From NCBI GenBank assembly GCA_009773645.1, contig WSYB01000003.1, positions 124,001 through 188,000 on the forward strand: a stretch of DNA of 64,000 bases, given 5' to 3'. The notes below the pieces were generated by a model. That model searched no databases, was not told the DNA's origin, and worked only from the letters and a program-made list of their open reading frames with translations. The stretch comes from Geobacteraceae bacterium. GTDB lineage: Bacteria; Desulfobacterota; Desulfuromonadia; Geobacterales; Geobacteraceae. The position numbers were made by a program, and so were the translations under genes. The stretch's first letter is position 1. Every line of letters starts with the position of its first letter. Of the stretch, positions 46,937 to 49,520 are shown in pieces.

Positions 46937-49225
46937 TTAGCGGTCTCCGGCCCTGCCGCCGGTCCTGAACCTCTGCCCCTTAAGCCCGTGCTTGTCCAGG
47001 AGCCGGTAAAAGGTTCTGCGGGGGATGTTGGCGAGCTGTGCCGCTCTTGACACATTTCCCCCCGCATCGGTAAGGTAGCGCTGGATGAGTTTTTTCTCCA
47101 CCCGCATGACATGGGGCTCCCGCTCATTCTTGAAAGAGACGAGATCGGGGAGGTCCGAGGCCCCTTCGGCGTAGTTTTCGGCGAAGATCAACGGCAAATT
47201 CCCCAGTTTGATAATCTTGTCGAGGGTGAGGACCGCGGCACGCTCGATGACGTTTTGCATCTCCCTGATGTTGCCTGGCCAGGAATACTGTGACATGGCC
47301 TTTATGGCCCGTTCCTCAAGGCCGATGATGTTTTTGTTCAGCTTATTGCGAGCCTTTTCCAGAAAATAGTGGGCAAGGAGCGGGACCGATTCGATCCTGC
47401 TGCGCAGAGGCGGCATGGTTATGGTGAAGACATTGAGACGGTAATAGAGGTCTTCCCGAAACCATCCATCCTTGACTCCCTCCTCCAGATTCCTGTTGGT
47501 AGCGGCAATAAGGCGGACATCCACCTTTTTGGTCACGGTTCCACCGACCGGTCTCACCTCCCCCCTGTCAAGAACGCGCAGGAGTTCAGCCTGGAGCTTG
47601 GGGGTGATGTCCCCGATTTCATCGAGAAAGATGGTTCCGCCGTCGGCCGCCTCAAAAAGCCCTTTTTTTTCAGCGACCGCGCCGGTGAACGCACCTCTCT
47701 TGTGTCCGAACAGCTCACTTTCCAGGAGCGAATCGGTAATGGTGGTGCAATTGACCGTTACCAGGGGTTTGTCGTTTCTTTTGCTGAATCGGTGGATGGC
47801 GCGGGCTGTCAGTTCCTTGCCGGTCCCCGATTCCCCTCGGATGAGGACTGTGGTGGGAGTGGGCCCCACCTGTTTGATCAGGTCGAGCACCTCCAGGGTT
47901 TTTCTGTCTGTCCCGACAATGAATTCATCGCCATATTCGCGATCAAGTTCCCTTTTGGCCAGTTCGTATTTCTGGATAAGTCTCCCCCGGTCCTCTTCAA
48001 GCTGCTGCAAATTATTCGGGAGGCACATCTCCAGATCGGCGAGGCCCTGGAAGACGGCAACTGCATAGTCGCGGCAGGTACGATAGCCGCAAGCCCGGCA
48101 GTTCAACTCGTCCTTCTGAGTGAACTTGTTGGTGCTCTGCAGGATTTTTTTCACATCGCTACCCTTTGGGATTGCCAGCTTCACATGCTTGCTTGAAAAA
48201 TCTCTGTCAAAGGAGCACGGTTTTATTTGTTCCGGGTAGTGGTGAGCGGTGTTGTACGGGACATCCCGTTTAAAGTGGGAGATGACCAGATTGCGCTTGT
48301 AAAATCCTGTCAGTTCTCTGTTCCTTTCCGGTCCGCCGATGCAGCCGTCATAACAGAAACGGATGTCGGCAATGCGGGGATTGATGCGACCTGATGCAAG
48401 ATCCTTGATGATTCCCATCACATTCACTTCTCCTTCGGCGGTCACGATTTCGCAGTCAAGTGGGTCGGTGGCAATGGAAAACGCTTTGAAGGTTCCTTCG
48501 GAAATGGGGAAAAGCCTGCCTAAGTGGGGCCGGATGCCATCGAACGGTTCTTCCTTGAGTGCGGGTACACTGATTGAACGGCTTTTGAATATCCCTTCCA
48601 GTTCCCTGTAAGTCAGAACGATGTCGATGACGCCGCCGGTTTCTTCTGCCTGGGCCTCAAACTTGGCGGCGATGCATGAGCTTAGGTAAACTACCTTGGT
48701 CTCGGCTCCCAGAATCGTTTTCAGGAAACGTCCCATTGCCACCATGGGGGAAACGACCGTTGCAAGATTGTTGATCAGTCGAGGATAGTGGCGTTCTATG
48801 AGGTCAACCACCGCAGGACAGTGTGATGAGATTAGAGGAGAAGGTGATCGTTCCATGGCTTCCGCATAGCCTGACGCCATCAGTTCGGCGCCGTAAGATC
48901 CTTCATGGACCTCGGCAAACCCCAGCTTTTTAAGTCCTGCCACAAGCTGACCAGGCGAAACGTAGTGGAAAAAAGCCGGGAAGGAGCATCCAAGTACGGC
49001 AATAACCGATTGGCCGGAAGCGAGCAGCTTTTCTGTCACTCCTACCTTGTCGCAAACAATCTTTGCTTTCTGCGGGCAGTTGCTGAGGCAGTTGCCGCAG
49101 CCGATGCAGCGGTCAAACATGATGTCGGTAAAATTCTTGTCCACCTTGATGGCCTTGACGGGGCAGCTCCTCACGCAGGAATAACATTTACGGCATTTTT
49201 CTCTTAAGGTAACGATCGGCTCCAT
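46937..49225 (-). CDS. Sigma54-dependent activator fused to ferredoxin and [FeFe]-hydrogenase-like sensor domains
   Basis: A 762-residue fusion. Residues 1-60 carry two 4Fe-4S ferredoxin motifs (CRKCYSCVRSCP, CIGCGNCLSNCP). Residues 70-360 match the catalytic domain of iron hydrogenases, with the four H-cluster cysteine positions kept in altered motifs (SSHCPAV, YLSSCIAAKFEA, RFCYDGCIGGPE). A 4-Cys FeS motif follows (CRACGYRTC...EMC). Next comes a sigma54 AAA+ domain with GESGTGKE, the sigma54-contacting GAFTGA and IFLDEIGD, and a Fis-type helix-turn-helix at the end (NVSRAAQLANIPRRTFYRLL). It should activate sigma54 promoters in response to H2 or redox state. The start ATG at 49225 directly gives the first FeS motif. 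Confidence 0.92.
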   Translation of the reverse strand: MEPIVTLREKCRKCYSCVRSCPVKAIKVDKNFTDIMFDRCIGCGNCLSNCPQKAKIVCDKVGVTEKLLASGQSVIAVLGCSFPAFFHYVSPGQLVAGLKKLGFAEVHEGSYGAELMASGYAEAMERSPSPLISSHCPAVVDLIERHYPRLINNLATVVSPMVAMGRFLKTILGAETKVVYLSSCIAAKFEAQAEETGGVIDIVLTYRELEGIFKSRSISVPALKEEPFDGIRPHLGRLFPISEGTFKAFSIATDPLDCEIVTAEGEVNVMGIIKDLASGRINPRIADIRFCYDGCIGGPERNRELTGFYKRNLVISHFKRDVPYNTAHHYPEQIKPCSFDRDFSSKHVKLAIPKGSDVKKILQSTNKFTQKDELNCRACGYRTCRDYAVAVFQGLADLEMCLPNNLQQLEEDRGRLIQKYELAKRELDREYGDEFIVGTDRKTLEVLDLIKQVGPTPTTVLIRGESGTGKELTARAIHRFSKRNDKPLVTVNCTTITDSLLESELFGHKRGAFTGAVAEKKGLFEAADGGTIFLDEIGDITPKLQAELLRVLDRGEVRPVGGTVTKKVDVRLIAATNRNLEEGVKDGWFREDLYYRLNVFTITMPPLRSRIESVPLLAHYFLEKARNKLNKNIIGLEERAIKAMSQYSWPGNIREMQNVIERAAVLTLDKIIKLGNLPLIFAENYAEGASDLPDLVSFKNEREPHVMRVEKKLIQRYLTDAGGNVSRAAQLANIPRRTFYRLLDKHGLKGQRFRTGGRAGDR

Positions 49226-49348: not shown

Positions 49349-49397
49349 TGTGCAAGTATTGACACACTGTGCATGGAGATGTGCAAAAAATGGCACA
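49349..49397. promoter_or_regulatory. Cluster of TGTGCA motifs and a TGTGC...GCACA dyad
   Basis: TGTGCA occurs at 49349, 49368 and 49380, and TGTGC (49380-49384) faces GCACA (49393-49397). The cluster lies in the leader between the structured RNA and the activator gene, consistent with a protein-binding region. Confidence 0.4.
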
Positions 49398-49407
49398 CTT
49401 TTTTGGC

Positions 49408-49486
49408 AAAAAAACACCCTAGCGACTAGGAGGGCAGTCAGCTAGGGCATAATGAGAGCCTTTCGGCCCTCGCAACTCCCTTTTCT
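49408..49486 (-). ncRNA. Structured leader RNA or small RNA ending in an intrinsic terminator
   Basis: On the minus strand a hairpin GAGGGCC-GAAA-GGCTCTC (49454-49471) with a GNRA tetraloop is followed by a long terminator stem CCCTAGC.GACT...AGTC.GCTAGGG (49417-49446) and seven T (49408-49414). The first arm's GAGGGC is also complementary to GCCCTC in the terminator loop, allowing a pseudoknot or an antiterminator. A promoter fits just upstream. It could be an attenuator or riboswitch for the 46937-49225 gene, or a separate sRNA of about 80 nt. It does not match a riboswitch class that I recognise. Confidence 0.5.
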
Positions 49487-49492
49487 ATTATT

Positions 49493-49520
49493 ATTATACT
49501 CCTGCCGGATATTTCCGCAA
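49493..49520 (-). promoter_or_regulatory. Promoter for the structured RNA / activator transcript
   Basis: On the minus strand TTGCGG (49515-49520), a 16-bp spacer and TATAAT (49493-49498) place the start near 49486, just before GGGAGTTGCGAGGG. Confidence 0.5.

Follow-up and report, generated by a model that had tools for sequence, protein, structure and literature searches.

The atoC RNA (RF01733) of Geobacter-type bacteria: a probable autonomous small RNA with an anti-Shine-Dalgarno terminator loop

The analysed DNA (the window, 64,000 nucleotides from a Geobacteraceae bacterium) carries on its minus strand a copy of the atoC RNA (RF01733), which is probably an autonomous trans-acting small RNA (sRNA) with an anti-Shine-Dalgarno (anti-SD) terminator loop and not a switch in a 5' UTR. 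A first-pass annotation of this DNA had described an unclassified structured RNA of no recognised class; its sequence observation was confirmed and its interpretation was partly supported. Instead of an unclassified RNA, a cmscan search returned RF01733 with 84.9 bits (E = 2.9e-14), above the gathering score of 50. The elements of the locus are listed below, in window coordinates.

49515 to 49520, minus strand: -35 box TTGCGG, from the sequence; a TTG-type -35 is conserved over 92 dereplicated loci
49493 to 49498, minus strand: -10 box TATAAT, from the sequence; corresponds to RF01733 model positions 3-8
49408 to 49486, minus strand: predicted sRNA of about 79 nt (atoC RNA, RF01733, 84.9 bits), its start placed from the -10 box
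49454 to 49471, minus strand: hairpin P1, GAGGGCC-GAAA-GGCTCTC, stem kept by compensatory change, loop variable
49416 to 49448, minus strand: terminator hairpin P2, from fold and covariation
49428 to 49434, minus strand: CCCTCCT, invariant P2 loop and anti-SD-like seed (103/104 loci; columns 120-126 of alignment A2)
49408 to 49414, minus strand: U-tract of seven T, intrinsic terminator, from the sequence
46937 to 49225, minus strand: downstream activator gene, apparently not an obligatory part of the RNA unit

The window copy spans model positions 1-93 of 93, and it shows the architecture of the family, with two consecutive hairpins, the second of which has a CCCUCC loop and a U-tail. The opening positions of the model, GgUAuAcU, are the -10 box of the promoter, indicating that the model itself starts in the promoter and not in transcribed RNA. 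RF01733 is annotated as Cis-reg, that is, as the 5' UTR of a regulated gene. This did not hold family-wide, where the downstream gene is variable, absent or convergent, which weakens the annotation and not the membership of the sequence family. In the main texts searched, RF01733 was mentioned in the 2010 paper of Weinberg et al. and in one algorithm paper only; no later functional study of atoC RNA was found, and searches for RNA-seq, Northern or target reports found none.

The -35/-10 promoter, the two hairpins with the long terminator stem, and the seven-U tract were all present at 49520-49408 of the minus strand, as had been reported for about 110 bp. The two promoter boxes are separated by 16 nt in the window copy and by 16-17 nt in 92 of 104 loci, and the promoter score was at least 9.5 in 86.5% of the 104 loci, compared with 13.8% of dinucleotide shuffles. 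Over the 92 dereplicated loci, conservation was at background upstream of the -35 box, rose at TTG and TATAAT, and dropped to background directly past the U-tract, which is 6-9 T long in 102/104 loci. The own promoter and intrinsic terminator expected of a trans-acting sRNA were thus found by sequence and conservation alone, and atoC RNA is predicted to be a self-contained unit from the -35 box through the U-tract. A small ORF inside the RNA was ruled out, its sole ATG running into CCC TAG.

The fold of the window RNA reaches -33.2 kcal/mol (z = -2.85), with 4/200 shuffles as good. When 101 sequences were aligned with a covariance model built in the present analysis, 94.3% of the cells in the P1 and P2 helices were standard pairs, and two-sided changes occurred at 14 of the 18 stem pairs (270 such cells). 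The stem covariation score was 0.497; shuffles gave 0.243 and slid controls 0.037-0.149. Fitting the alignment to the structure biases it towards stem support, but the gap to the controls is so large that the fitting is unlikely to account for it fully. When RNAalifold was run on a sequence-only alignment, P2 was recovered with covariation and P1 was not predicted, probably because P1 loop lengths differ. The compensatory change among relatives that had been proposed as a check was strong in both stems, and together with the promoter conservation it agrees with the earlier view that the RNA is real and structured, has both a promoter of its own and an intrinsic terminator, and is predicted to give a product of about 80 nt.

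These features also bear on a reading in which the element is a strong intrinsic terminator only, kept for termination and without a separate RNA function. In favour of this reading, nearly all relatives have a good terminator here, which in several families separates convergent or co-directional genes. It is nevertheless scarcely credible, since terminators need no conserved, well-spaced promoter, covarying second hairpin or invariant seven-base loop.

The GNRA-capped hairpin described by the first-pass annotation holds for the window copy, where GAAA caps P1, but GNRA loops were found in just 29/104 loci, and P1 loops differ within the window's order (GAAA, GCAA, UUCG, UAAC and others). A (U/C)GGACGC(A/G) P1 loop recurs at loci of other Desulfuromonadia families (L086, L090-L094, L096, L098 and L100) and in one Candidatus Moranbacteria-group copy (L273, see below), and is perhaps a second functional motif or protein site. 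The GGA in this loop outside the window's family (e.g. L086, L090-L094, L096, L098) would suit an autonomous sRNA that binds a protein, CsrA or another RNA-binding protein, and not mRNAs; CsrA has been a subject of study in Geobacter sulfurreducens (PMC11934962). Such a protein-binding sRNA is unlikely, however, as in the window's order it is the C-rich terminator loop, without GGA, that is invariant, while the P1 loop varies.

The main alternative to an autonomous sRNA is a cis-acting riboswitch or attenuator of the activator, with the terminator as expression platform, switched by P1 or by a contact between GAGGGC (49471-49466) and GCCCTC (49435-49430). The entry for atoC in Weinberg et al. 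2010 (PMC2864571) favours it, giving RNA 'y', cis-reg 'y' and switch '?' in delta-Proteobacteria, although a passage of the same paper states that cis-regulation is usually assumed when a motif is commonly upstream of coding regions. In the window copy the two segments are exactly complementary on the minus strand, and this part of the earlier description stood; the hallmark of a switch or pseudoknot that had been seen in it did not. Across 101 sequences, 74.5% of the cells of the contact were paired, compared with 76.3% in shuffles, 496/500 shuffles paired as well as the real alignment, and all six pairs were possible in merely 11/101 sequences. The compensatory changes looked for in this contact were absent over the 101 relatives, and the complementarity follows from the P1 arm being G-rich and the terminator loop C-rich. 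A riboswitch or attenuator calls for two mutually exclusive, evolutionarily supported pairings, and the sole alternative proposed here was this contact, which showed no covariation; a switch or pseudoknot through it was ruled out by the pair counts, which were no better than shuffles.

The gene context leads in the same direction. In the window, the terminator lies upstream of a co-directional regulator, with 183 nt between the end of the U-tract and the activator ATG at 49225, close to the 180 bp first given, and the encoded protein has Fer4, [FeFe]-hydrogenase-like, FeS, sigma54-AAA and Fis-HTH domains. A close activator match was found downstream of the RNA at 34/104 loci, which would fit control in cis, but at the other 70/104 there was none within the flanking stretch compared, and the functional tie to the activator implied by the first-pass annotation was not borne out. 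At most g14 and g2 loci the same place is recognisable by a divergent upstream protein and by CysS beyond, with the activator missing and the RNA intact; the upstream protein was read as transglutaminase-like, its sole Pfam match being DUF6134, below cut-off. In family f4 it is commonly folK that follows the RNA, while in other families of the class the nearest conserved gene downstream encodes an Rrf2 regulator and runs on the other strand, convergent to the RNA, at 16/16 loci; CysS is convergent at 11 loci. CysS (cluster C12) and GluQRS (C10) were named from sequence reading, with Pfam giving tRNA-synt_1c for C10.

In a whole-genome search, 13 genomes had a close activator orthologue (54-68% identity) at a distance from the RNA, as in G117, with the RNA at 3.129 Mb and the activator at 2.890 Mb. 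About a dozen further RNA-bearing genomes (e.g. G041, G048 and G062) had only paralogues of about 30% identity or short activator matches. The RNA thus persists with the activator absent or far off, and nothing is conserved past the U-tract, suggesting that the activator is not an obligatory part of the atoC RNA unit. Cis-control of the activator was ruled out family-wide by this synteny; a riboswitch or attenuator is already contradicted as a family-wide function and is very unlikely overall. Additional read-through control of the activator may exist in the window's family and in f3, where this gene often follows the RNA in the same orientation.

Two similar palindromes of the form TGT-N12-ACA, TGTGCCATTTTTTGCACA and TGTGTCAATACTTGCACA, were observed on the minus strand at 49380-49397 and 49349-49366, between the terminator and the activator. 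They may be upstream sites at which the sigma54 activator itself binds.

The autonomous sRNA reading centres on the terminator loop. CCCTCCT was found in this loop in 103/104 loci, while the surrounding stem changes by compensation, providing the conserved unpaired anti-SD seed expected of a trans-acting sRNA. CCCUCCU contains the CCUCCU core of the anti-Shine-Dalgarno end of 16S rRNA. By gene presence Hfq is also available in the host, with one gene in each of the 18/18 genomes tested, the window's genome included. In the mechanism that we propose, a sigma70-type promoter (TTGCGG-16-TATAAT) would start an RNA of about 79 nt, which would fold into the 5' hairpin P1 and the 3' intrinsic terminator P2, with the P2 loop presenting the invariant CCCUCCU. 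Hfq would probably sit on the U-tail, and the loop could block translation of other mRNAs by pairing with their AGGAGGG-type ribosome-binding sites. Translational repression is proposed because the loop is invariant and contains the anti-SD core, and because Hfq is encoded. Family, promoter, stems, loop invariance, boundaries and gene independence were computed, while we infer expression, Hfq binding, target pairing and outcome.

A pattern scan for targets in the RNA's own genome gave 30 AGGAGGGC-N-ATG sites, compared with 16 for the reversed pattern, few of them at plausible gene starts; the latter include ORFs read as GlmU-like (in L243) and as oxoacid:ferredoxin oxidoreductase gamma-like (in L254). 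Simple duplex energies for target sites, which ignore internal structure, were uninformative.

atoC RNA is close to universal in the window's order, mostly in a single copy, and is widespread across the class. Matches over the Rfam cut-off were found in 46/48 genomes of the window's family and in 124/141 of the order, nearly always as one copy, and matches at E <= 1e-3 in 185/277 genomes of the class. Of the 106 contigs returned by a pattern scan of the genome collection, nearly all bear names such as Geobacter, Geobacteraceae or Desulfuromonadales. Sampled genomes of the phylum outside the class gave no match at E <= 1e-4 (10 candidates per genome scored), and viral contigs gave no atoC RNA match.

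A second copy, which has diverged (L108; G000:C32:41203-41299, minus strand, 52 bits), is present in the window's genome; it adjoins two tRNA-Met genes, lies upstream of an amidohydrolase-like ORF and has its loop altered to TTTTCCTTTCTTCC. In a contig filed as Chloroflexi (L220, JADFVC010000286.1), the RNA has Rrf2, GluQRS and ammonium transporter genes as neighbours; the contig was rejected as a Chloroflexi occurrence and is probably mis-binned, since these neighbours are those of Desulfuromonadia.

Look-alikes were found in the Candidatus Moranbacteria group. A pattern hit in Candidatus Moranbacteria GW2011_GWC2_37_8 (L197:6114-6200, plus strand) scored 54.1 bits with model R1, and two more of the 18 genomes in its family gave 41.7 and 40.9 bits. 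The further copies are listed below.

L272:633-723, minus strand: R1 match of 42 bits, Candidatus Moranbacteria-group
L273:1501-1610, minus strand: R1 match of 41 bits, Candidatus Moranbacteria-group

All three copies lie antisense in the gap between grpE and dnaK (named from ORF reading), with promoter-like sequence, two hairpins, a CCCTCC loop and a T-tract. In an Rfam comparison, two of the three matched atoC at E = 9e-6 and 0.003 but stayed under the gathering score, and the third match is weak; these copies may reflect shared descent, transfer or convergence. It is conceivable, at slightly less than even chances, that RF01733 has been mis-filed as cis-regulatory and is a core, mostly single-copy anti-SD sRNA of Desulfuromonadia that also occurs in the Candidatus Moranbacteria group of the candidate phyla radiation. 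If so, atoC RNA has been shared horizontally, or else it is much older and more widely distributed than the records show.

With the sRNA reading, a family that has lacked a function since its description in 2010 gains a testable one, as a near-universal sRNA of Geobacter-type bacteria, a group whose post-transcriptional control has been little studied. Work would be redirected from a ligand search to a search for mRNA targets, and the results suggest revising both the Cis-reg label of RF01733 and its promoter-containing model start.

Among known systems, the sub-threshold structural resemblances to Rfam RF02837 anti-hemB (one Moranbacteria copy, 25.4 bits) and RF02399 NsiR1 (window copy, 16.4 bits) are far below gathering scores and were treated as chance or general sRNA architecture. 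A C-rich precedent is RoxS/FsrA of Bacillus (PMC8216469), where C-rich regions are used to reach mRNA targets; the organism and architecture differ. Precedents for anti-SD loops are SmelA075 (PMC3927594) and NfeR1/alpha-r14 of rhizobia (PMC10746234). The latter, with CCUCCUCCC anti-SD loops, shares with atoC RNA an ultraconserved anti-Shine-Dalgarno motif in hairpin loops with variable stems, in a different clade and with no sign of common descent. NfeR1 has three hairpins, each with CCUCCUCCC, and targets shown experimentally, whereas atoC RNA has one such loop, CCCUCCU in the terminator. The closest counterpart is RF01733 itself, which the window copy matches in full length, both hairpins, CCCUCCU loop, U-tail and bacterial group; the family is recorded as cis-regulatory, whereas the present data point to a free-standing sRNA.
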